From: Amyloporia xantha | Lineage: Eukaryota; Basidiomycota; Agaricomycetes; Polyporales; Adustoporiaceae | Reading direction: 5' to 3' | Length of the DNA: 64,000 nucleotides | Assembly: GCA_036971615.1 (NCBI GenBank) | Contig: JAYKKR010000017.1 | Location: 1 to 64,000 of the forward strand | Part shown: piece by piece, positions 1,705 through 48,985 of the stretch | Layout of the letters: each line of letters starts with the position of its first letter | How positions within the stretch are numbered: the stretch's first letter is position 1 | Made by a program: the position numbers and the translations under genes | Notes under the pieces: generated by a model | Seen by the model: the letters and a program-made list of their open reading frames with translations, nothing else | What the model was told of the DNA's origin: nothing | Database searches by the model: none

Positions 1705-2340
1705 TCACCCTATGTAGCCGTTGTCGCCCGTTCGCTTCTCGATATCTTGTGTCACAGTCAGACAACATCTCTCGTTGCTATATGAACTGGACCTACCACC
1801 AATAGCGCGGTCAGCGCACGGCGTAAGCACAGGGTTGCGCTTGGCGATATCTGTATAAGATTTACCAATGCCGAGTGAGTATGCCATGAAGCATGACATA
1901 TCAAAAACCGACTACTGACCATTGTAAGTAACAGGTGACGCAGCAATCACTTGCAACAAGGCGATTGAACATAAGCCAAAAACGGACTTAAAGAGCATCG
2001 TGAACTTTAGAGAGTGAATCGACTACAGGGAGGCGCTGCTGTCGCCTGTACTTGGAGACAGCATTTATGCATCAGCATCGCTCAACCACCCCGGGCCGAC
2101 TAGTTGTGTATTTCTCTGCACCAATCATAGACAATAGACACGCGCATGATCATTGAGCAGACATGCAGTGGGTAAGTGACGACGAGATAGTTTACGATGT
2201 GAAACTGATCCGAACAAATGCTCAAACAATCATCAATGGGAGACTCGCCGTAAGAATGTATGGGTTTACAGACATCCGAAGACCTATTTTGACCATTTAG
2301 CCAGTGGCCTGATGAAAAGGAAGCCGCCACGAGCTCTGTC
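1600..2340. repeat. Tandem duplication unit 1 (small secreted-protein gene and promoter)
   Basis: It aligns with about 2530-3500. The match covers the 3' flank, the last exons, the signal-peptide exon, the leader and about 250 bp of upstream DNA (for example AGACAATAGACA...GCGCATGA.CATTGAGCAGAC near 2130 and 3340). Unit 1 is shorter because three internal exons present in unit 2 are absent. Confidence 0.75.
1705..1998 (-). CDS. Small secreted precursor with exon-encoded Kex2-type sites, short form
   Basis: I predict three exons: 1998-1920, 1850-1797 and 1745-1705. They sum to 174 nt and encode 57 residues. Exon 1 encodes MLFKSVFGLCSIALLQVIAA followed by SPVTYN, a clear signal peptide. Introns 1919-1851 (GTCAGT...ACAG) and 1796-1746 (GTAGGT...AAG) are both phase 1. 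Each downstream exon therefore begins with the codon completed by the upstream G, giving DIAKR and then DIEKR. KR is the classical Kex2 cleavage site, so the expected products are a Cys-containing peptide beginning NPVLTPCADR and a C-terminal TGDNGYIG. The paralogue at 2588-3209 shares the signal peptide, splice phases and cassette pattern. I do not recognise a named family. Repeated Kex2-site precursors are known in fungi (for example the KEP class), but this exon-per-peptide layout is inferred here. Confidence 0.65.
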
Positions 2341-2587
2341 AATGAGCTAGGTATAGCAAGGGGTTTTCAGCCTAGGTTGGGAGCAAGCCCTTCTCAGAAT
2401 CTCACCGGGGGCAAAATTAAGATTTGCGACGGTGGAACACCCTTCGGGCATGCTCCAGCATGTGATTAATTCAGGAGGACAATAACAAATGGAAATAGCG
2501 TTCTGGAGCGGTTCTACAGTTTTCCAGTAGCTTTATCGCTCAGTCAAGACCTTCCTTGAACGATCAGGCCATGTCTGTGTCACATTC

Positions 2588-3209
2588 TCATCTCGCCGTC
2601 TGGATCTGGCCTCCCTTTCGTTTCTCGAAATCTTATGTCACAGTCAGACAATGTCACAACGTTTGTCATTCCCATATGCACACACATACCACTAATGATG
2701 CCGTATAGGCAGTGCGTTTCAGGGCTAGCGTCGCGCTCAGCGATACCTGTACGAGGTTTCCAACAGCGAGTGAGTATAGCATGGAGTACAGTCATCCTCG
2801 GCAGACTCACCGCATTCGCGTTTCGCGAGATCTTCGCCCTTGCGATGAGACAAAGTTTTGGACTGTCATATGGATCCACTCACCGTCCGTGGGGAAGTAA
2901 ATGTGCCCATCTGACACGCGCTTGGCAAGTTCTACTCAATAACAGGAATCACCAATGTCAATGAGCTGGAACATCTATGAACGGGAGTCAGGACAATTCT
3001 CACCTGCGCGCTCCGCAAGGTCTTCTCCCATTCAGCGCAAGTTAGATCAAGAGCCCCTCAGCATTACTGAACGCACCTTCAGCAGGGATAATGTCAATAC
3101 TGTAGCATAGAATATTGACCGACTACTGACCATTGTAAGCGACAGGCGACGCGACAACCACTTGCAGCAAAGCAGCCGCACATAAGCCAAAGACGAACTT
3201 GAATAGCAT
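2588..3209 (-). CDS. Small secreted precursor with five Kex2-like exon cassettes, long form
   Basis: I predict six exons: 3209-3131, 3021-3004 (18 nt), 2931-2884, 2831-2811 (21 nt), 2746-2690 and 2631-2588. They sum to 267 nt and encode 88 residues. Exon 1 is a signal peptide (MLFKFVFGLCAAALLQVVVA then SPVAYN). All five introns are phase 1 with GT-AG ends (GTCAGT, GTGAGA, GTGAGT, GTGAGT, GTATGT). Every following exon opens with the same motif class: DLAER, ELAKR, DLAKR, GIAER, DFEKR. Three carry a KR dibasic site and two have ER. Predicted peptides include VSDGHIYFPTD and the C-terminal KGGQIQTAR. The first intron (109 nt) is the least certain, because an acceptor 3 nt earlier would also keep frame. 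The function could be secreted peptide signalling or an effector-like precursor; this is inference. Confidence 0.65.
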
Positions 3210-3272
3210 CGCGAGTTGACAGAGCGATTCAATTTCGGGGAGACACTTCTGTAACCGGCACTTGGAGACAGC

Positions 3273-3279
3273 ATTTATA
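3273..3279 (-). promoter_or_regulatory. TATA box of the long-form secreted-precursor gene
   Basis: On the minus strand TATAAAT lies 64-70 nt upstream of the ATG at 3209. The short-form paralogue has CATAAAT at the equivalent place (about 2063-2069), so the element is conserved but weaker there. Confidence 0.4.
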
Positions 3280-3649
3280 CATCAGCGCTCGACCACCTAA
3301 CTACCTGCGCATTCTTGTGCGCCTATCAGACAATAGACATGCGCATGAGCATTGAGCAGACCCGCAGTAGGGTCAGTGGGGTATGTGATGACAAGAGATT
3401 TCGCCAAAGAACTGATCCGAACACGTCTTCGGACAATGTTATCGCCCAGCTGTCACCATTTGACAGCAGACGCTGTTCCATATTAAATTCAGCTAAAAAG
3501 AAATCATGATGTCTATGTCATCCATAATGATGGCGGTGACAAGTTGACTTATAGGCTGTTTGTGAACCTTTGAGTACCTGCTTCAAAGCTGCATTTCACC
3601 GCGGCCTGACGTGACTCAGGAAGAAATTGACATAGCTCATTCAACATGG

Positions 3650-4620
3650 TAGGACCTACCAGTGTGGCCTATTCCTGACGGCAGCTCTTCAATAGCAAAG
3701 GGTCGATGGTGCTGGCATACTCTGCTAGCCTTGAGGTTGGACGACGGTGGATGACAATGTCAAGACAGATCTGAGCGGCCAGAATAACCCGCCATTCGGC
3801 GCTGCCTGAGTGGTCGGTGTAATTAGCATATGATCAGATGAAGGGTTACTTTCTAAAATAGTACGCACCACGCACATGCGCCAATTTGTTATTTCCTGGA
3901 GGTTATTGTGAGATGTCAGCCCGACCCTGAGGGTGGTCTTTCGGAGCTGATGGAATCAGGCTGGCTGACTTTGCGCAGCGAATGATGTCGCGCGATGCAA
4001 ACGCTCGTAATGTGACTTTAACGCGAACAGCCAATCCTGAGATTGTAACAGGTAGGCCGCTAGGGAACGCTCATGTTGTATACTGATTAGGACAACTCGC
4101 AGAGCTATTGAGCGATTCTTCTCCTGCAAGACGAAGGAACTATGAGTTGAAAAATTATGAATCATGGCGGAGCAGATGGAAGTTGACGCGTTTACGTACA
4201 TGCAGGATATGAATCCGGAGGGCGCCCACCTGTGCAGGGAAGGCATACGGTGTGAATAGTAGGAGACGGTCGGTTTGATGATGTCGTAATTAGCTTCCGG
4301 GCATCGATCAGAGAACGGTCCGTGCCCGCCGAGGTATGGACACCGAATCCGCACCGCATAAATTACTCCGCGGTATGATTGCGGTACGCAGCGCAGAGTA
4401 CGAGTTCCCTATCTGCCGTCTAGTCTGTCCCCTCTAAAATAAAAACGACATTCACATTGCATCCGTAATATCAGACACCGCGCGTATCATGGCCCAGAGC
4501 CCTCTGAATCGTATAGTGCCTTTATAGGAAAGCTCCCATCACTTGCCTGTACCCTGTCGACTTTTATAGCGACCGGTTTGCCCTTACGGTACAACAGCGC
4601 TCCTTCCGACGGTTCCGCTA
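3650..4620. repeat. Right arm of the diverged inverted repeat
   Basis: This is the reverse-complement partner of 1-1010. Between the two arms lies the tandem pair of secreted-precursor genes (about 1.6-3.5 kb). The distal end of the arm runs into the 3' exon of the gene at 4487-5860. No intact gene was found inside the arm; the partner of the ORF at 720 has lost its start codon here. Confidence 0.65.
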
Positions 4621-6480
4621 GGTAGCGGACTCGATTGGACACGATCGGCCGCACAGGATCAAGCACCTTCACGACACGCACCAAGAGCACCCTTTTCTTC
4701 GCGTGTTCCTCCAAAGTGGATCGCTCAAGACGACAGACGATCGTACCTGGGTGAGGACATAGTTACATATGTGCATGCCTACGTTTCATCTGACTCACCA
4801 GAATACTCGGGCATGTACTTATTGCCTTCGCTTCGTGCGAAATGGGTCACTCGCGTATAGAGTGAGGTCCAACGGTGCAATCCGCCCTCTGCCCAGACCC
4901 AGATCGGCGAGGCTATGCGCTCCAGGTTGATTACGATTGGATCATCGAGGGTAAACATGTATTGAGAAAGGCTGCGCATGAAGCGTCTTACACCAGCCGC
5001 TTCGAGAACAGCACGGCAGCGTGCCAGCAGACCAGGGTCAATGAGCCGATCCCTGAGCAAAACGCTCAACAGCATACCATACGAAGGCAATGCGGAGATG
5101 TCGAGAAGGCTTATGATGTAGGGGATACCGGAAGGAAATTGGAGATCCATGCCCCGCTCAAATTCGGGCGGTCCCTCGTTAGGGACAAGCCGGAAGCGAA
5201 TCCCTCCAGCAACGTCAGGGTGATTTGGTGGACGGTGGTAGTAGAACCAACCCCGGGTGTCGGGAGGAAAGGGAAGCTGGTTGAACTGGTTTCTGTTTGG
5301 ATTGGCCCGCTCTTCTGCCTTGGATCGTTCTGTCTTGGGCCATAGAAGTTTAGAGTACGAGAGTAGTGCCCATCCAACACGATTCCAGTCCTCGTCAGAA
5401 ATATCGGGACGTCGTTTCCACGCGGACCCTGCACGAGTCTCTCGGCTGCGAGGCACCAAGCACTGTCTATCGTAGACCATGACAGTGTATTTTGACAAGT
5501 GAACTATATCCGATGGGCCTAGGCGACGCGGATCGAACGTGTGCACATTCACATCAAATAGAGGCCTTGGCGGGGCGGAAATTGTCTGGTGCGCTCAACT
5601 CAGCAGTCCATAACCATTTTCTACAGAAAGATGAGCTTACAAGTTTGCGATGTGAAAGCTTACTCGACGAAGTGAGAGCCGTTGTCCTCCGGGGGAAAGA
5701 CCTTGCAGTTTTGACCCAGCAGGAGTGCAGCATCATACCGACGAGCCGGAGGCCGGTTTAAAAGCTCGGCTTGGATGGTATATCCTGTTTGTATGGTCTC
5801 CTTAACTTGCGACTCCTGATCCGGAAGCAGTTGGCAAGCCAAGTCGTAGGCCGACTGCATGAACCAGAAGGGCCTTCCAGTACGCGTCTGCACGCGTTAT
5901 TTTGGCGTTTTGTACCTTCCTGAAGGATACGAGCACAATATTAGTAGATACCAGGTGAAGATGAAGGGGAGTACCCACAACTTGACAGTCGCAAATTGAA
6001 TCGTTTGAAGTAACACTGCGTCTGAATTTGCGCTTGCTACGCCGCTACACGTGAGGTGCCGGCGCTTGCCATTCTGCGGGCATTTCGAAGTACGTACCGC
6101 GGCCATACTTAGTACCTCCAGCCGGTCTAATATCATTATGATACCTCTGGAGGTACAAGCATTATAGGAATAAGTATTACAACTGAAGTACTGAATTCGC
6201 CGACACTCGCAGACTAGTTATGGAAAATTTCCCAACCAAGAACCTCATATCTAGCTTGGACGTATTATTGAGACGTTCAGCTCTGTTTGACGTCCTCACA
6301 TTGGATGACCCCAGTGAACACATGTACATCGGGGGCGAGTGCGCTGAAATGATCACACAATGCCCCCGGACGCTATCCCGGTCCGCGTCCCCACAAGGGG
6401 CACTTATCACTGTCGGCGTCATAGAATACAGTCGGGACGCCCATGGTCACGTTGAGATTTGGCCGACCATAGACTGGTCG
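4300..6480. repeat. Tandem duplication unit A of the unnamed gene family
   Basis: It aligns with about 6570-8740 in the same orientation. Matching parts are the 3' flank (CGATCAGAGAACG at 4306 against CGATCAAAGAACG at 6573; CGCAGTACGCAGCGCAG-type block), the whole gene, the 5' flank (TTGTACCTTCCTGAAGG in both) and a distal block (GATCACACAATG...GTTGAGATTTGGCCGA at 6350-6470 against 8625-8740). Confidence 0.75.
4487..5860 (-). CDS. Unnamed lineage-expanded protein, intact copy
   Basis: I predict three exons: 5860-5664, 5565-4799 and 4746-4487. They sum to 1224 nt and encode 407 residues. Introns are phase 2 (GTAAGC...AAG) and phase 1 (GTGAGT...CAG), and both junctions are supported by the paralogue at 6732-8120. 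Conserved stretches between the copies include FPPDTRGWFYYHRPPNHPDV, AGGIRFRLVPNEGPPEFERG, LLRDRLID and the C-terminal LLYRKGKP. There is no signal peptide or membrane segment and I recognise no catalytic motif. I recall similar unnamed proteins being abundant in polypore genomes, but no function is known to me. The start chosen is the first ATG in the 5' exon (MQSAYDLACQLLPD). A still earlier exon is possible, because the duplicated sequence continues upstream. Confidence 0.6.
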
Positions 6481-6569: not shown

Positions 6570-8740
6570 ATCAAAGAACGAAGCGTGCGGGCAGGCAAGC
6601 CTGTCGAAATATCAGCATTGAATTCGCACAGCTGTATGATCGCAGTACGCAGCGCAGGATTCCTTATCTGCCGTCTACAAAGCCACGGTCTCCTCCACGC
6701 ATTACACTCGTAATATCACACACTGCGCCTATCATGTCCCAGAGCCCTTTGAATCGTACAGTGCCCGTAGAGGAAGGGATCCATCAGCCGCGTTTACTTT
6801 GTCGACATCCATGGATATCGGTTTTCCCTTACGGTACAGCAGCTCTCCCTCCGATGGTTCCACTAGGCAGGGGTCACGATCGGGCACGAGCAGTCGCACA
6901 GGCTCAAGCACCTTCACAACACGCACTAAGAGCACCCGTCTCCCGGCATGTTGTTCCAAAGTAGACCGCTCAAAGCGACAGATGATTGTACCTGGGTCGG
7001 AACACAGTTATTCATGTGCATGCCTACGTTTCATCTCACTCACCAGAATATTCGAGCGTGTAATGGTCGCCTCCGCTGCGCGAGAAACGGGTCACTCGTG
7101 TCCTAATCGAGTTCCAATGGTGTAATCCACCATCTGACCAGATCCAGATACGCGAGGTTAGTTGACCCAGGTTGATCATGAACAAATCGTCGAGCGAAAA
7201 TATGAATTGAGAGAGGCTGCGCATGAAGCGTTTTACACCAGCTGCTTCGAAAACAGCACGACAGCGCGCCAGTAGATCGTGGTCAATGAGCCGATCCCGG
7301 AGCAAGATGCTCGACAGCATATCATACGAAGACAATGCGGAGATGTCGAGAAGGCTTATGACGTAGGGTACACCGGTAGGAATATAAAGATCCGTGCCCC
7401 GCTCAAATTCGGGCGGTCCCTCGTTAGGGACAAGCCGGAAGCGAATTCCTCCAGCAACGTCAGGGTGATTTGGTGGACGATGGTAATAGAACCAACCCCG
7501 GGTGTCAGGAGGGAAGGCGATGCGATAGAACCAGCATTTCTTTGGATTGGGTGATATTTCTACCTTGGACCGTCCTGCATGGTGCCGTAGAACTTTGTAG
7601 TACGAGAGTTGCACACGTCCAAAGCGATCCCAGTCGTTGTCAGAAATGTCTTCGCGTCGTTGCCATACAGCTCCTCCTTCAGTCGGTCGGGCGCGAGGCA
7701 CCAAGAACTGTCTATCGTAGAGCCCAACAGTATATTTTGACAAGTTGACTATATCCGATGGACCTAGGCGACGTGGATCGAACGTGCGGATGTTTACCTC
7801 GAATTGAGGCCTGTACTTGTGGGAAGTTGTCTGGTGCGCTTAACTCAGCGGTCCATATGCGTTTTCTGCAGCAAGACAAGCTTACAGTGTTGCGGGGTGA
7901 AAGTGGACGCGGTTTACTCGACGAAGCGAGACCCCTTGGCCTCTGGGCAAAAGACCGAGCACTTGTAACGGCCCAGCTGGGTTGCAGTACATGGTGCAGC
8001 ATCATACTGGCGAGCCAGATGCTGGTTCAAAACCCCGACTTGGGTGAAGTATCTGGTTGACACGGTCTCGTTTGCTTGTAGGCCGAATGTATGCAACCAG
8101 AGGGAATTTCTAGCAGTCACCTACACGTCTGCACGCGGTGCTCTCCCGTCTTGTACCTTCCTGAAGGGTGTGAGCGCGAATAAGTACCAAGTGAAGATGG
8201 AGAAGGAGACCTAAGGAGACCTACAACTCGACAAGTCGGAAACTGAGTCGTTTACAAGAACGCTGTTTCTGAAGGCACGTGAAGCACCGGCGCCTGTCGT
8301 TCTGCAGGCGTCTCATTGAAGGTGTGCAGCTCTGCCGCCAGATCAAAGGAGGCAACAACTAAACTTGAAGTACGTAGCGAGGTCGCTCTTGTCTCCCGTA
8401 GGCACAGTCTCTAAATTGTTACCTTACAGAGGGAGGGGAGGATGGTAACTCATACTCACAGGTTATTTGGCAGACTAACCCACGGGCCGAAGGTTACGTG
8501 ACATTGACACTTCCCAAGCAAGCAGCTTGGTATTAAATATTGAATGTTAATACCTTTAGCTCTTGTATTGTTTGCCATCATGAATTAGACTCCTGACCCT
8601 ACACTGAGGGCGAGTGGCTCGGTGCGATCACACAAAATGTCAGCTCGGACGCTGTCTGCATCTCCATGAATTTCCGAGCGCACTCGGGCTGTCACCATCA
8701 TATAGTCAGAACACCCGTCGTGGTCAGTTGAGATCTGGCC
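6570..8740. repeat. Tandem duplication unit B of the unnamed gene family
   Basis: This is the direct copy of 4300-6480, about 2.2 kb long. Coding exons 2 and 3 have exactly the same lengths as in unit A (767 and 260 nt), while the first exon and the flanks have diverged with indels. Confidence 0.75.
6732..8120 (-). pseudogene. Second copy of the unnamed family, 5' exon degraded
   Basis: Exons 7810-7044 and 6991-6732 are open and match the intact neighbour over their full length (GWFYYHRPPNHPDV, GIRFRLVPNEGPPEFERG, LLRDRLID). The first exon (about 8120-7918) is damaged. The ATG of the intact copy is replaced, about 40 nt are missing just after it, and a short insertion precedes the YKCSVF region. 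No in-frame ATG precedes exon 2. The donor GTAAAC at the end of exon 1 is still present, and an acceptor ACAG precedes exon 2. I infer loss of the normal start. An undetected upstream ATG exon could rescue it, so the pseudogene call is tentative. Confidence 0.5.
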
Positions 8741-21489: not shown

Positions 21490-22950
21490 GAATGGTGGGA
21501 ACCTTGCCATGCTGGCACCGTGTGTGCGTCTGTGGGTCCGTGAGGGCGTGAATTTGGAGACATTTTGCTCAATTTTTCCCTGTCGACAGATTCTCGATGA
21601 TTGCAATCCAGTTGCGACCGCCGACTTCTCTGTAGGTCCATACGCCTTGATTGCACCCTCTTCTCAGAGTTATATAGCTTGCCATGACCGCCATCATGTC
21701 CTCAGCAATTCCCGACGTCCCAGTCAAGCCAATTCACCCACATCCTCCTCGACACGTCCAATTCACCAACAATGTCTGCATCATTCTCTACTTTTGTGAT
21801 CCCGTCCATCTTCACCTGGAGCGAAGCCCGCCCTGAGCACGATATTGAAGCCCAGGTCATCGTCGGAACGCACGAGGAATATATCAACATCACACTGCCC
21901 GCTCCTCCGAGCGCTGTCACCTACATTACCCGCACCCCGCTCTCCCCTGAGGAAGAGGGCACGGACCCCATCGACGACTTCTTCGGCGTTGTACGCCCTT
22001 CACGGACATCGCGCTCTGCACACGGCACGCAGGATAGCCGCCACGATGCAGCGACGCTCCCCGTACACCACGATGATATCCCCCCGCCGTACTCGTACGT
22101 GGCAGACCCGCCTGCCTACTCTCGGTTCGAAGAGCAGCCCACGCTTGCCATGTACCTGTTCTACTTTGGCCTTGGTGAGCATATTTCTGTGCATTGCTGT
22201 GTATTAGAACCGGGGGCTGATTTTCTCGCTCTTCTTCAGTGTTCCCATTATTCTGGATCGCAGGCGCCTTCATTCTCATCTCACCTCTCCGCGCACCAGA
22301 GGATTGGGAGACGTCCAAGACCGAGACGGAGCGTGAGGAGTTGATCGGGAGCATGAGGCGCACCGAGGTCAAATGGGCGAAGCGCTGTCTCCTTGCCCTC
22401 ACGGTGTGGGCGGTTGTACTCGTGGTGGTCACACTGGCAGTCGTGTTCGCAGACAGACGGTGAACGCCTGCTGCTCAGTTCCCCCTTCTCTTGGCATTGC
22501 CTGCCGCTCGACCTACGTCGCTCATCGCATTCCTTGATGTCCTCGCCGACCGCTATTGCGCCTTGTCAGCGATCACACGCTCTTTCGCATTCCCGTAGAC
22601 CCGGGTGGAACTTCCGAGCACGCCTCTGCCACTCCCTGCAAGACAAACCAATCGTCTGCTTCCTGCTTTCACGGCAGCCACTACCGCCCACAACACTGTG
22701 GACTTCACCCCGTTCATTAGAAATAACCGCGACCACCGACGCGCTCTCACACTAATTTCAACTCGCACACACCACATCACGATATTTTATGTGTTTTTAT
22801 GATTTCGTTCTATTTTTTTTCCTTCTTTCATGGACGCGGTACCGGATACCGCATTGTACACAAGTGTAGCGCTAGCACCCAAAAATGTATAAATAAATGG
22901 AATGACCTCTCGTACATCGTATCGCAATGAAAGAGCCACTAGAGAGATAT
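21490..22950. repeat. Copy 1 of a recent inverted segmental duplication
   Basis: This segment matches the reverse complement of about 47535-48985 nearly base for base, including the promoter, both exons, the intron and the 3' flank. Similarity begins at GGTGGGAACCTTGCCATGC (about 21492) and ends near TGCGATACGATGTACGAGA (about 22920). Confidence 0.9.
21772..22463 (+). CDS. Two-helix membrane protein with PPPPY/PPAY motifs (copy 1)
   Basis: Two exons, 21772-22174 and 22240-22463, encode 208 residues with a phase-1 GTGAGC...CAG intron. The N-terminal 130 residues are soluble and acidic/Pro-rich, ending DIPPPYSYVADPPAYSRF. These PY-type sequences are typical of docking sites for WW domains of NEDD4/Rsp5 ligases; that role is inferred. 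Two hydrophobic helices follow: one across the splice junction (AMYLFYFGLVFPLFWIAG) and one near the C-terminus (LLALTVWAVVLVVVTLAVVF), separated by a charged loop (PEDWETSKTETEREE). No enzymatic motif is seen and I do not know a named family. A near-identical inverted copy lies at 48017-48708. Confidence 0.8.
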
Positions 22951-42092: not shown

Positions 42093-45000
42093 CTACACAC
42101 CACTGCGTCCGACCGCTCGGGTGCTAGGCCCATCAGCCAGCTGCGGTAGACTTTTCTCGGCCCGCGAATCCGCAGGGGGTGGAAGGAACTCTGTGCGGAC
42201 GAGCCACGCTAAGTATCGCCCCATCAACTCATCGTCCACAGTGCAGTTCACTTCCCGGACATGAGGTGCCAGCAGTGTCCTCATGTTGGCATCGTTCAAC
42301 TCCGGTGCCTTTGTACTTGTGGGTAGATCATCAAGCACAAAATGCAGCAGCGGGAACAGCGCATTATCCTGGACCTCCATGACGTGCTTCTCCAGCTGGC
42401 GTCGCCACAACAGATATTCGCAACGCTCTGTGCCAAATCCGTACCGCGTGAGTGACGAGAGGAAATCGTTGAAGGTAGGGCGGGGATGTGCTGCAACGTG
42501 CAGCACACTGAGTGCATCCCGGGGAGACGGAAGGGGTGCAAGTGCTGCGAGCGCCGTACACTGCGCTACGTGATCGACGGGGACCATGTTGACAGTGTTG
42601 TTGATGTCAGGCACCAAACCTAACTGGATGCAGCCCTTCACCATCCGCCAGATGAAATCATCGGTGTTGGTGACTGTAACCGCCAAGAGATGTTAGATCT
42701 AGAATGGAGTGTGTAACATTGAGCGTACCTGCAGATTGGGAATCGCCGACCACGTATCCCGGCCGTAGAATGTGGCCTTTCAACCCACGTCGTCCAGCTT
42801 CGAAGAGCAGCTTTTCCGACACCCACTTTGTCTGTCCATACCCGGTCTTGAGGTTCGTCCTGGCGCCTTCGAGGTCATCATTCTCAGGGACACCTCCGAG
42901 GCTCTTCTGGTCCCGCGACAACGTATCGGACAACGATACGTAGTGATCGGTGTCGATAGCCGACGTGGACGACACGAAGACGAATAGCTTGGGCTTGACA
43001 GTCGCAGCGAATTCCATCGCTGTCAACGTCCCAATCACGTTTGCTGGTCGGAGCTTCTCGTACGGATACACCCAATGGACCTGATCAAACGAGACCGATC
43101 AGCAACGGATGTAAGGAACCCAGTTCGCATTTTCCATACTAGTGCGCCATTGTGTATCACCGCATCTGCATCCTCCGCAATGCGGTTCCAAGTCAGTTTA
43201 TCTAAGCCGAATAAATCCTGGTCCAGGTCGCCCTTCACCACCTCAAGTCTCGACTGCCTCACCCACTCTTCATTCCAGACACCTCGTCCACTGGCGGCGT
43301 CTCGAAGACGCTCGAGGGCTTTGTCTGAGTCAGCTGCCCTAACGAGACAAATTACTTTCTTCACCCGATCAGGGCGGGAGAGCAGGTCCCGTAAGATGAA
43401 AGCTCCGAGGAAGCCGGTCGCACCTGTCAAGAAGATGGTGAGGGGACGATGGGAATAATCTGACGACACGGCAGCGTATGAAGGCCGTAATTGAGATAGT
43501 AAACTCTCGTAGTCCTCGCTGTACGTGACCTTCTTAGATACAGCAGAGCGTTTTAGGGCTGTCTTCAGTGTTGACGGCTCGGCTGTTGGCGACAGCTTGT
43601 CGCTCTCTCTGCCGGTGAAGCCTAGGTCTGCATTGCGCAGTTCGTCGACGGCCGCAGCGAGTGCGCTGATAGTCGGCTTATCGAAGACGAGCCCTAGAGG
43701 CGCTTCAACAAGGAAGGCCTTGCGAATCTCGAAGATCAGGCGAGTAGCGAGGATAGAGTGTCCCCCAACGTCGAAGAAGCTCTCGTCCAGTGGGATCGGG
43801 GATGGCGGATTGGGTAGAATGCGAGACCAGATGGCACGGATCGCTTCCTCAGTAGGTGTTGCAGCAGGCCCGCGATGCGCCTCGGCTGGCGCCGCTTGGG
43901 CAGTGTCCGGGAAGGGCAGAGCTGGCTTGTCAATTTTTCCCGTTAGGGTTCAAAGGCATCCGTTTGAGAGGGACAAAGACTAGGCAGTCAAGGAATTAGA
44001 GTCGAGAGAACAAAGCGAAGAGAAATCATGCTCACGAGTTGGTACACTATAACTAGGTAACTTCTTTTTGAGATACTCTCTGATATCCTTGATCAGTCTC
44101 CTATACCGTCTCATACCGCTGACGACGCCCTTCTCATCGTCGCTTTCCGCAATATCACTTGCGAACTCATCCAATGCCGGGCCGCCGACAGGCACGAAGT
44201 AGCTTACGAGGACCTTCTCCTCGTCCTTGTCTCGCCGGACAAGGGTGACATTTTCTCGGATAAGCGGGTGCTGGCTGAGATACAGGTCGATCTCGCCCAA
44301 CTCGATACGGAAGCCACGTATCTTGACCTGGTCGTCCGCCCGACCTGTACACTCCACGATGCCAGTGGGCAAGTACCGCCCCAAGTCGCCTGAGCGGTAC
44401 ATCCTGTCGCGTATGCCCTTCCAGAACTGCGCCTCAGGACCTGGGTGCCCTGATGCTGGTTCGCGTATGGTGTCCTTTCGTGACTGAAGATTGAGGGAAA
44501 ACCAGTTGATGACGAACTTCTCCGCGGTCGCCTCTTGGTCTGAGTAGCCCTCTGCGAGCCCGCCCGAGCGAACATAGATCTCGCCGACCTCGCCCACGGC
44601 ACAGGGCACATTTTTGTCATTGCGATTGACGACGAGCAGCTGCACGTCGATCATACCTTCTCCCGCAGGCATGATCTCTTTCTGAGTAGCGAGGAAAGTT
44701 GCATCCTCGGAGACGCTTGGGATGAGGAAGTATGATACGGCGCGTTGTGTTTCAGTTGTACCGTACATATTGATGATACGCACATTCGCAGCGAGGGATT
44801 GGAGACGGAGGCAGTCACGTTTGGTGAGGACGTCGCCCACGAAGAAGGCATTGCGGAGAGAAGGAATCTGGCGTGTGGCTTGCGCGGAGAGAAGCTGACC
44901 CATAGCGGGCGTGAGGTGTGTAACGGTCACCTCGTTATCAGCCATCCATTCTGCAAGTCGTCCAGGGGTACCGATATCCTCGGCAGTTGGGACGTAGAGC

Positions 45001-46702
45001 CTCGCGCCAAAGAACAAAGGAGTAAACACTAGAATGGCACAGATGTAGACAGACACGAGGAGAGGAATCAAAGACGAGCTCACTGTCGCGCTGGATCGGG
45101 TCATGAGCGATCCCGCTGAGCATCGTGAACTTTGAATCTTCGCCCAGCCCGAACCTCTGCCCCATCCACGGGAAGAAGTGCGTCAGACTGAAGTGTCTGC
45201 CCCGGACACCCTTCGGTATGCCCGTGCTGCCGCTGGTGAACGACAGTGTGCCGACGCTATCAGGACCAAGCGCTACATCAGGGTCCTTGTCAGCCAAATG
45301 TATATGTGGCTTGAGCACGTCGTCGCCGCTTTTGCCCTGTCCGCCGACTACCTCCCCGTCCGCCAGTAGCTCCAGGGCAGGTACCTCGACACGGATCTGC
45401 AGCTCAGAGGAGACGAACTCGCGTACTGGCGCGCTGATCTTCCCCGCGCCCTTGAGTACGACCAATGCACGGGGTTGCGCGACCTTGAGATAAATTGTTT
45501 GCCTGGATGGAGGGTATGCGGGATCTACAGCAACATCGATCCGCAATAGGAATCTAACAGTCAGTTGCGAACAAGTCCTAGATAAGTTGAGACGAAAGTG
45601 AAGCACCTATGACGGAAAACGTTGCGCCAGCCTTCAGCACCGCCATGACCGCGACCACGAGTTCGACACTGCGGTAGGCATATACCATGACGACTTCTTC
45701 GCGCTGCACGCCTCCTTGCAAGAGGTGGTGCGCGAGTATGTTTGCTGCATGCAGGATCGTCTGGTAGGTGAATGTCCTTCTCTGTTGAGGCTCGTCAAAC
45801 CTCTCCGGAGTGAGGCACTGGATCACACAGGGGCGGTCTGGCCACCTCCGTGCGTTCCGCGAAAAGACATCCGTGATGGCGCCCTTCCAGTCGCACCAGT
45901 TCAGATCTGCCGTCGGGTCGGGCAAGGTTGCGCGCTGCGCGGGAGTGAGCAGAGGCACGGCGCCCACCAATGTGACGGGGTTCGCAGCAACCTTGCGCAG
46001 GAGTACCGAAAGCTGATCGACGATGCATGTGATCCTCGCCGGCGTGAATAGTAGCGAGTTGTACAGCAAACGAAGCGTGATGTGCGGTGCCACGGAGCTG
46101 CGGCTCGTCTCGTGTTGCCGGGTGACGAACACGGTGAGATCGGACGTCAGGCTCGTAGAGCGGAGGAAATTCTCCTGCGGTGCGTCTGTCTCGTCAAAGA
46201 AACGCACACGGAAGAGCGGGCGCGAGCTCTCTGCTGTGTCCGCCTTGTCTTTTCCAAGCGCACGCACGATGGCCTCGTACGGCAGGGCGTCCGCCTCGGC
46301 TTCCCTCTCGACCTGCTGCACTTTGCGCACGACCGCCCAGAACGGATCATCCGGATTAACCGATATTCGAAGAACCAGTGGATCGCGTGCAGATGCTGAC
46401 GACGAGCCGATGACCAGATCCGTGTCGCCTGTGTACCGGTGAAGCAGCACAGAGAACGCAGCAAGCAGGAGATGGAAGGGTGATGGCGTCTTGTTCTGAA
46501 CTGTCTCTTCCTCCTCCCCGTCTTCATTCTCGTTGTACAGCGCCAGCTTCAGCAGACCGAGGCATGTCTGCTCCGAGAGATCAGTCGAGTATGCAGCCTC
46601 CACTAACCTGTTTCCCGCAAGCCGTGGATAATCCGTCGGAAGTGATATCGAAGGAAGGTTTTGCAGGCGAGATGCCACCCGAGCCAGACGTCCGTCAGCC
46701 AT
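42093..46702 (-). CDS. LYS2: L-2-aminoadipate reductase (with a single-base frameshift)
   Basis: LYS2 activates alpha-aminoadipate with ATP, loads it on a phosphopantetheine arm and reduces it to the semialdehyde in fungal lysine synthesis. I predict exons 46702-45607, 45524-45084, 45028-44036, 43979-43140, 43080-42729 and 42673-42093. Domains in order: an N-terminal condensation-like region (to about residue 230); the adenylation domain with [35 protein letters not shown] and [19 protein letters not shown]; a carrier domain with [14 protein letters not shown] (Ser is the pantetheine site); and an NADPH reductase domain with [19 protein letters not shown] and [12 protein letters not shown]. 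The homopolymer at 43934-43938 has five T (plus strand), and the frame breaks exactly between NPNGK and IDKPALPF. Removing one base makes all exon phases agree (about 1433 aa). This is either a sequencing error or a real lesion. Confidence 0.93.
43934..43938 (-). other. LYS2: Frameshift site in LYS2
   Basis: The minus strand reads GGG followed by AAAAATT. The conserved Lys2 sequence NPNGKID needs one A fewer. Exon 4 is 840 nt, whereas its flanking phases require a length one base shorter. Downstream codons are intact through the carrier and reductase domains. Confidence 0.85.
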
Positions 46703-47534
46703 GACAAGGCGTCCACAGATACTAGGATCGAAGTGTTCTCGTGCAGCACACAATGTGTGCAAAAGAATTTTGAAAGCGAGTAAATAAAATAAATGACTCG
46801 AGAGGTACTCTATTGGGCGCTTATCCAACGCGTAAAATGGTCACGTGCATCGTGTCTTCAAATTATTTGACGTCGCAATGCGTTACGGCATATGGCTTTG
46901 AGTAGTGAAATAGGCTGAGCTAATCAGCTCAGCTAATTAACCTATGTAATTCACCGGTAAATTTCAGGTCAATTTCAGGAGGGTCAAGAATCTTGGGTCA
47001 AATAGGGTCAATTTGACAGTGGTGATACAGGATAATTTCAGACATTTTTGGGCTATCTCAGAGCCCATAGGACTGCAGTAGCACTATTTACCTGGAAGAC
47101 CAATGACGTCTATAGACAATCTGAAGGCAAGGACATAAAATTCTACTCAAGACTTATAATGATCATGATGCGCGAGAAGTGAGATGCGTTTGTTGCTGTA
47201 GTCCAGGATCTCGTGCTCATGGAAGTTCTTTCGGACAAGTCTATCAACGCACCGCGGTTATCACCAGAGCGAGATACCGCGAACAAGACAGACTACAGCG
47301 GCCCCGAGAATGAGGAGCTTGACTGGGACGCATGGTAGTACCAAAGTGCGCTAATTAAGTTGAATTAACCGTCAATTTGACCAATTTGACCGGTTAACCA
47401 TTGATTAGTGCTAATTAGCCAATGGTTAATTAACTGTGACATAAATTAGGACCCTGAGCTTCGAGCAGTCAGTACTAGTCTAAGTCAGTCCTTTCAGAGG
47501 GCTGTCTTCTATATACGTTCACGATTATTTCTCA
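46703..47534. other. AT-rich intergenic DNA with simple TTAAT/AATT repeats
   Basis: Words such as GCTAATTA, TTAATTAAC and GTCAATTTGAC recur around 46920-47040 and 47340-47440. No ORF has coding support. It could be a degraded non-autonomous element; no clear terminal repeats were identified. Confidence 0.35.
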
Positions 47535-48985
47535 CAGTGGCTCTTTCACTGCGATACGATGTACGAGAAGTCATTCCATTTATTTATACATTTTTGGGGG
47601 GGGGGGCTAGCGCTACACTTGTGTACAGGGCAGTATCCGGCACCGCGTCCATGAAAGAGGAAGAAAGGAGAACGAAATCATAAAAAGACATAAAATATCA
47701 TGATGCGGTGTGAGAGTCGAGATTGGTGTAAGAGAACGGGTTGTTGATCTTCGAAAGAGCGGGGCGAAGCCCGAATTATGTAGTGGGCGGTAGGGGCTGC
47801 CGTGAAGGCAGGAAACAGACAATGTGATCCGTTTTGCAGGGAGCGGCGGAGGCGTGCTCGCGAAAATGTTCCGTCCGGGTGTACGGGAATGCGAAAGAGT
47901 GTGTGATCGCTGATAAGGCGCAATAGCGGTCGGCGGGGAAAGTCAAGGAATACGACGGTCGACGTATGTCGTACGGCAGGCAATGCCAAGAGAAGGGGGA
48001 ACTGAGCAGCAGGCGTTCACCGTCTGTCTGCGAACACGACTGCCAGTGTGACCACCACGAGTACAACGGCCCACACCGCGAGAGCGAGAAGACAGCGCTT
48101 CGCCCATTTGACCTCAGTACGCCTCATGCTCCCGATCAACTCCTGACGCTCAGTCTCGGTCTTGGACGTCTCCCAGTCCTCTGGTGCGCGGAGGGGTGAG
48201 ATGAGGATGAGGGCGCCTGCGATCCAGAATAATGGGAACACTGAAGAAGAGCGGGAAAATCAGCAACCAGTTCCAATACACGGCAATACACAGAAATATG
48301 CTCACCAAGGCCAAAGTAGAACAGGTACATGGCAAGCGTAGGCTGCTCTTCGAACCGAGAGTAGGCAGGCGGGTCTGCCACGCACGAGTACGGCGGTGGG
48401 ATGTCATCGTGGTGCACAGGGAGTGTCGCTGCATCGTGACGGCTGTCCTGCGTGCCGTGTGCAGAGCGCGATGACTGTGAAGGGCGTACAACGCCGAAGA
48501 AGTCGTCGATGGGGTCGGTGCCCTCTTCCTCAGGTGAGAGCGGGGTGCGGGAAATGTAGGTGACTGCGCTCGGGGGAGCGGGCAGCGTGATGTTGATGTA
48601 TTCCTCGTGCATTCCAACGACGACCTGGGCTTCAATGTCGTGCTCGGGGCGGGCTTCGCTCCAGGTGAAGATGGACGGGATCACAAAAGTAGAGGATGAT
48701 GCGGACATTGTTGATGAATTGGACGTGTCGAGGAGGATGTGGGTGGATTGGCTTGACTGGGACGTCGGGAATTGCTGAGGACATGATGACCGTCATGGCA
48801 AGCTATATAACTCCGAGAAGAGGGTGGAATCAAGGCGTATGGACCTACAGAGAAGTCGACGGTCGCAACTGGATTGCAATCAGCGAGAATCCGTCGACAA
48901 GGGAAAATCGAGCAAAATGTCTCCAAATTCACGCCCTCACGGACCCACAGACGCACACACGGTGCCAGCATGGCAAGGTTCCCAC
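47535..48985. repeat. Copy 2 of the inverted segmental duplication
   Basis: This is the reverse-complement copy of 21490-22950. A difference of note is a run of eleven or more G at about 47598, where copy 1 has three. Both exons are preserved. Confidence 0.9.
48017..48708 (-). CDS. Two-helix membrane protein with PPPPY/PPAY motifs (copy 2)
   Basis: Exons 48708-48306 and 48240-48017 have exactly the same lengths as copy 1 and encode 208 residues, differing at roughly a dozen positions (for example F5S, the SYVAD/SCVAD change, F-to-L in the first helix region). The reading frame, splice sites, PY motifs (DIPPPYSCVADPPAYSRF) and both helices are intact, so the copy looks functional. The change SYVAD to SCVAD removes a Tyr next to the PPPY core but leaves the PPPY itself. 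The copy is alone between LYS2 and the RBR ligase, with its own promoter carried in the duplicated segment. Confidence 0.8.

Follow-up and report, generated by a model that had tools for sequence, protein, structure and literature searches.

The two tandem genes near the start of contig C9 probably (we put the probability at about 0.8) belong to a gene family with no fewer than eight members, which encode KEX2-processed secreted precursors and are assembled from symmetric phase-1 mini-exons. The window analyzed here is the first 64 kb of this contig, in a genome of 46.8 Mb and 60 contigs, and the two genes lie in tandem on the minus strand at positions 1998–1705 (gene 1) and 3209–2588 (gene 2); all gene models and exon borders are predictions from sequence. 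According to the models, each gene would consist of a signal-peptide-like exon followed by phase-1 mini-exons, the internal ones 18–57 nt long. A tandem pair of this plan had been proposed in a sequence-only reading of the region and was borne out by the models, in which all seven introns are phase 1 and have GT–AG borders.

Gene 2 (CDS 267 nt) has six predicted exons on the minus strand, with a TATAAA located 70 nt 5' of its ATG. Exon 1 (3209–3131) carries the ATG and a signal-peptide-like sequence judged by eye, MLFKFVFGLCAAALLQVVVASPVAYN; it is followed by mini-exon 2 (3021–3004, 18 nt; DLAERA, with a non-dibasic cassette), mini-exon 3 (2931–2884, 48 nt; ELAKR and VSDGHIYFPTD), mini-exon 4 (2831–2811, 21 nt; DLAKR and EC), mini-exon 5 (2746–2690, 57 nt; GIAER and DASPETHCLYGIIS), and a terminal exon (2631–2588) encoding DFEKR, KGGQIQTAR and the stop. 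The predicted product is MLFKFVFGLCAAALLQVVVASPVAYN-DLAER-A-ELAKR-VSDGHIYFPTD-DLAKR-EC-GIAER-DASPETHCLYGIIS-DFEKR-KGGQIQTAR. Gene 1 (CDS 174 nt, minus strand), with a CATAAA 71 nt 5' of the ATG, has three predicted exons: exon 1 (1998–1920; MLFKSVFGLCSIALLQVIAASPVTYN), mini-exon 2 (1850–1797, 54 nt; DIAKR and NPVLTPCADRAIG), and a terminal exon (1745–1705; DIEKR, TGDNGYIG and the stop), giving the product MLFKSVFGLCSIALLQVIAASPVTYN-DIAKR-NPVLTPCADRAIG-DIEKR-TGDNGYIG. The stop of gene 1 is overlapped by a donor-like GTGAGT; an intron starting at this site would be in phase 2, whereas all others in the models are in phase 1, and the stop was provisionally kept. Both CDS lengths and all seven cassettes quoted in the sequence-only reading, each at its place, were recovered; the statement that no other splice choice gives lengths divisible by three was too strong, since dropping any internal exon keeps the frame as well. 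Comparison of the signal exons of the two genes revealed 78% protein identity and a pN/pS of 0.23, the latter over a short sequence, and the promoters and 5' regions (1999–2200 for gene 1 and 3210–3400 for gene 2, minus strand) were 80% identical in ungapped columns and 68% identical over all columns. RNA-family and tRNA scans gave no match.

Protein and pattern searches found six paralogues, which were modelled with the same plan on contig C13, at 302.9 kb (+), 491.3 kb (+), 492.4 kb (+), 502.6 kb (−), 505.5 kb (−) and 509.2 kb (−); this paralogy is read directly from the sequences. All eight genes start with MLFK, followed by a hydrophobic stretch and small residues (judged by eye), and all eight have a TATA-like box 70–76 nt before the ATG, one of these being CATAAA. 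The 44 modelled introns (49–143 nt) are without exception phase 1, a count that is partly circular because the exons were hand-picked with the phase-1 rule in view; their donors are GT in 42 cases and GC in two, their acceptors are all AG, and a branch-like YTRAC motif is present in 26 of them, compared with 6.05 (s.d. 2.3) in shuffled introns. Internal exons in the eight models are 12–75 nt long and phase 1. The model of the 502.6-kb gene has no clean 3' end (CDS 235 nt), and the 505.5-kb gene contains one exon with a degraded cassette, DLEDGEGG. Homologue searches with two spliced precursors, which depend on shared 5-residue words, yielded no match in a set of 5.8 billion proteins; the set does contain fungal UstYa proteins.

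The sequence-only reading had assigned a Kex2-type cassette to every mini-exon, which held for five of the seven cassettes in genes 1 and 2 but not for DLAER and GIAER, neither of which is dibasic. Dibasic cassettes are found in the single internal exon and the terminal exon of gene 1, and in two of the four internal exons and the terminal exon of gene 2. Across the eight genes, KR or RR occurs within the first six residues of 24 of the 37 internal mini-exons, and at residues 6–7 of one more. The junction codon is usually D (G|AT), and most cassettes therefore begin with D. Dibasic sites are present in 18 of 22 D-initial mini-exons, whereas none of the six G-initial cassettes is dibasic (they have ER, QR, GR or TR), and no cassette is present in two further G-initial exons of 12 nt (GLSE and GLTE). 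The G-initial non-dibasic set, which occurs on both C9 and C13, is possibly a second cassette type. The G-initial exons may stay uncut and act as spacers, may be cut by another protease, or may have lost a former site by decay. Two cassette-like stretches occur together in only 3 of 52 exons (exon 3 of the 502-kb gene and exon 2 of the 491- and 492-kb genes). The genome contains one place with a match to the kexin-type P domain (P_proprotein). Since about three residues separate each KR from the intron that precedes it, a released peptide would be split over two exons: the predicted peptide between two KR sites consists of the core of one exon and the first three residues (D and two more) of the next. 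Predicted released peptides include NPVLTPCADRAIGDIE, VSDGHIYFPTDDLA, ECGIAERDASPETHCLYGIISDFE and EGGEVYTFPDDLV, before any C-terminal trimming. The notion of one peptide per exon was thus nearly right, except that the predicted peptide spans two exons, and the peptides named earlier are present as cores, their predicted released forms being longer.

Comparison of individual exons pointed to correspondence between the two contigs. Mini-exon 2 of gene 2 resembles exon 2 of the C13 paralogues (GLAQRAP.., ALAGRAP.., GLVERAP..), mini-exon 4 is the likely counterpart of C13 exons of 21–24 nt (NLDRREC, YLERRICG), and the HCLYG of mini-exon 5 is also found in two C13 paralogues. Gene 2 and the 491/492-kb genes have a common exon order, [x-L-A-x-R-A..], [x-L-x-x-R-x-C], [G-I-x-x-R..HCLYG..], [D-x-E-x-R..], and because of this match the two shortest exons of gene 2 (18 and 21 nt) likely have counterparts on another contig; gene 2 has one exon more than the 491/492-kb genes in models read by eye. 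The number of internal mini-exons is one in gene 1, four in gene 2, and 3 to 13 in the C13 paralogues, and the frame is unbroken throughout, in agreement with the earlier proposal that whole exons can be gained or lost without a frameshift. Exon 2 of gene 1, together with the preceding intron, aligns with exon 5 of gene 2 and its intron, and the last exons align too; three exons are therefore cleanly absent from gene 1 or were gained by gene 2. Between the two genes, identity in ungapped columns is 79% and 86% for the cassette stretches but 67% and 68% for the core stretches, for which the values over all columns are 59% and 53%. These short stretches suggest only a trend toward cassettes being more alike than cores.

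Some of these features would also fit a reading of the C9 pair as fading pseudogenes whose processing has been lost: half of the internal cassettes of gene 2 (two of four) are non-dibasic, gene 1 has three exons fewer and CATAAA instead of TATAAA, and the pair is located at a contig end. We consider such decay unlikely, as both frames are intact with GT–AG splice sites, the signal exons show a pN/pS of 0.23 (from a short sequence), and non-dibasic cassettes occur at corresponding places in the C13 paralogues.

A genome-wide search for cassette exons had been suggested by the sequence-only reading. Together with protein searches, it led to the six C13 paralogues. A strict pattern (D-[LI]-[ADE]-[KE]-R after an acceptor AG) gave 83 matches in 46.8 Mb compared with 38 for a control in which the pattern was read backwards, whereas a looser cassette pattern gave 170 matches compared with 250 for the reversed control and was without genome-wide enrichment. 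Four of the 83 strict matches fall within 1.3 kb on one strand at genes 1 and 2 (Poisson probability about 2e-8), and among the matches listed for the looser pattern, which extend through contig C24, the only tight cluster is at the 13-exon gene. Because the looser pattern is not enriched, single cassettes prove nothing, but chains do. In the regions scanned, chains of at least three cassettes with a spacing below 300 nt were detected only in gene 2 and in the 492-, 502- and 509-kb genes of C13, a scan that missed the four other family genes, including gene 1 with its two cassettes only; the reversed sequences contained none. Neither fourteen regions of 8–9 kb around single cassette matches (L045–L058) nor 26 three-kb loci of strict matches outside the window's genes contained a chain of three; one of the former (L046) had one pair of cassette-like matches. 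The exons are very short and lone cassettes occur throughout the genome, which would be expected if these were intergenic frames that merely happen to be open; this explanation is nevertheless highly improbable in view of the complete lack of chains in reversed sequences, the existence of paralogues, and coding constraint, the constraint on the 509-kb gene contradicting it at the level of the family.

This constraint is evident in the 509.2-kb gene itself, which has 13 separate 45-nt exons, each encoding DL[VATS]KREGGEVYTFPD, that is, DL[VATS]KR-EGGEVYTFPD, one of them with L for F. Comparison of all pairs of repeats revealed that 520 of 592 differences are located at codon position 3, with pS of 0.63 and pN of 0.032 (pN/pS 0.05); the core residues are invariant except for the single F/L difference, and 12 of the 13 cores are identical. 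Identity among the exons is 83%, whereas the 12 introns between repeats are 64% identical, compared with 49% for shuffled sequences. On the basis of the position-3 bias, the pN/pS of 0.05 and the drift of the introns to 64%, it is very probable that these mini-exons are translated in the predicted way; such a pattern is what translation of precisely these exons in this frame would produce. The original observation on the C9 pair is thereby better supported than when it was put forward. The 502.6-kb gene contains one exon (C13:502405–502331, minus strand; L041) in which two repeats follow each other without an intron, joined at the predicted exon–exon border with a 39-bp period, and this arrangement supports the predicted exon borders. 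The fused exon, which has an unusual GAG acceptor and a GC donor, probably reflects a natural, precise intron loss, or else what looks like a copy of spliced RNA. The constraint test and the fused repeats are both less circular than the count of intron phases.

The repeats of the 509.2-kb gene form a 97-bp tandem array, and exon and intron were therefore copied together as a unit. One explanation that is compatible with the gene models regards the exon-per-repeat plan as a functionless by-product of duplicating an intron-containing unit, with only the final peptides mattering, and we see its chances as evenly balanced. It would account for the 97-bp units including the intron, for the paralogue in which two in-frame repeats have no intron between them, and for introns that drift while exons are constrained; however, genes with unlike cores (the C9 pair and the 303-, 491-, 492- and 505-kb genes of C13) share the plan, and 49 of 52 modelled exons have at most one cassette-like stretch (counted by eye), so that the plan has outlasted the divergence of the cores. 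That the symmetric exons instead serve alternative splicing, which would vary the set of peptides, is doubtful. All modelled introns are phase 1, any internal exon could be skipped in frame, and three of the 45-nt exons hold an internal in-phase donor-like site, but with 12 of 13 cores identical in the 13-repeat gene, skipping would alter dose more than kind. Copying of units together with their intron is simpler than such a splicing library and explains most of the data. We consider similarly doubtful a broader cassette system, in which one gene would yield varied peptide cocktails through exon skipping, whether regulated or stochastic, and through rapid turnover of exons, with UstYa cyclization at one locus.

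Our preferred reading, a family of KEX2-processed precursors, resembles a known class. KEX2-processed repeat proteins (KEPs) are described, in the main texts of three papers (Le Marquer 2019, Umemura 2020 and Vogt 2022), as proteins with a secretion-signal-like N terminus and repeated cores with KR sites that are encoded by several genes per genome and are known in Agaricomycetes (PMC6339444, PMC7329392, PMC9769878); in these main texts "exon" and "splice" are absent, and "intron" appears a single time, where a cloning procedure is described. The C9/C13 family shares a start that looks signal-like by eye, the presence of several genes per genome and, in part, the separation of cores by KR sites, and differs in that most sites and cores are on their own phase-1 mini-exon and that the C9 cores are mutually unlike. 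Repeats separated by Kex2 sites are found in the 509-kb (13) and 502-kb (three, near-identical) genes of C13, whereas the cores of the C9 pair differ. No description of KEP genes with one repeat per exon was found in the open-access literature, where the earlier claim that no described family has a mini-exon for each site and peptide also found no counterexample; the family appears to be a variant of this known precursor class with a gene architecture of a new kind. The KEP survey of Umemura 2020 was based on annotated proteins with repeats (PMC7329392). Genes split into exons of 18–57 nt would be easily missed by gene finders, and should the plan prove widespread, a large number of secreted-peptide genes in fungi may still lack annotation. 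The epichloecyclin precursor GigA, outlined in PMC6514808 as a signal sequence and four repeats with KR sites, has a signal-like start and KR-site repeats in common with the present family, as compared by description only; exons are not mentioned in that account of GigA.

Analysis of UstYa (PF11807, DUF3328) profile matches revealed 33 listed genome-wide, at about 23 places when counted from the individual entries; the Pfam scan on C13 covered three frames. Two UstYa genes on C13, at 498.7 kb and 512.4 kb, are located among five of the six paralogues (491–509 kb), the former between the 491/492-kb and 502-kb genes and the latter about 3 kb from the 509.2-kb gene. As a rough estimate, about 1% of random points would have a UstYa place no more than 10 kb away. 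None was listed near the 302.9-kb gene, and on C9 no match was listed at E up to 1. The 512-kb UstYa protein retains both HxxHC motifs (HLLHC and HASHC), whereas the 498-kb protein (L040:6604–7182, C13:498.6–499.2 kb, minus strand) is His-poor, with RQLRC and ESGRC in place of HxxHC and neither motif complete. Full HxxHC motifs are likewise absent from its four best database matches (P0001–P0004), and these sequences suggest a conserved His-poor UstYa branch that is here located beside KEP genes. In the 5.8-billion protein set the 498-kb protein has 18 relatives, 12 of them named; the named ones come from fungi that we take to be Agaricomycetes, and several of these (Rhodofomes, Sparassis, Postia and Fomitopsis) to be polypores. 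Tyr is present in 26 of the 37 internal mini-exons of the eight genes (18 of 29 distinct ones), 13 of the 26 being one repeated core. No cassette chain was present in 5 kb of sequence lying between UstYa genes of contig C34.

Dikaritins are RiPPs of the ustiloxin, asperipin and phomopsin type, as introduced in PMC6514808 and PMC12048977. The likeness to them at the main C13 locus consists of KEP genes adjoining UstYa/DUF3328 genes, one of which has two HxxHC motifs, and of many Tyr cores. The C9 pair differs from dikaritins in having no UstYa match on its contig, and it therefore cannot be called a pair of dikaritin genes.

In the mechanism that we propose, a gene made of one signal exon and successive symmetric phase-1 mini-exons, of which most hold one cassette and one core, would be spliced into a precursor that enters the secretory pathway, where kexin cleavage at the KR/RR cassettes would free the core peptides. 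UstYa-type neighbours at the main C13 locus may oxidize Tyr-containing cores, in a dikaritin-like pathway. The architecture, the paralogy, the constraint on the 13-repeat gene and the in-frame differences in exon number can be seen in the sequence itself; we infer splicing in vivo, Kex2 cleavage, secretion and UstYa modification. The family would change by duplication of an exon with its intron, by clean loss or gain of exons, and by change of the cores; such exon-wise change is possible because each unit keeps the reading frame, and the result would be a simple gene design in which peptides are gained or lost by whole exons. As to the biological role, our best guess is that the family acts on other organisms.

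To our knowledge, the nearest animal design is that of the aphid bicycle genes, and we know of no bicycle or micro-exon gene with a Kex2 cassette per exon. Schistosome micro-exon genes encode secreted, fast-changing proteins and have many tiny exons. They serve as a further animal comparison (PMC5825161). The bicycle genes are summarized in PMC9168663 as encoding secreted, fast-changing proteins on many tiny phase-2 exons; compared by description, the tiny one-phase exons are shared, theirs being phase 2 and those of the present family phase 1.

In the surroundings of genes 1 and 2, inverted repeat copies flank the pair (9–902 versus 3742–4604, and 10–160 versus 6698–6848; 74–87% complementary). 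Because of these flanking repeats, and because the window starts at the contig end, the gene pair may lie in a rearranged or subtelomeric stretch. A tandem pair of orphan genes on the minus strand (4782–5594 and 7027–7839) is 69% identical and has one distant relative on C60; the first of the two had no Pfam match. Pieces of an NRPS-like enzyme with Condensation, AMP-binding, PP-binding and NAD_binding_4 domains are located at 43038–46840 (−). Two frames of equal length, 21688–22341 (+) and 48139–48792 (−), lie 26 kb apart in opposite orientation with their first 50 residues near-identical, and are probably a repeat element or a duplicated gene.
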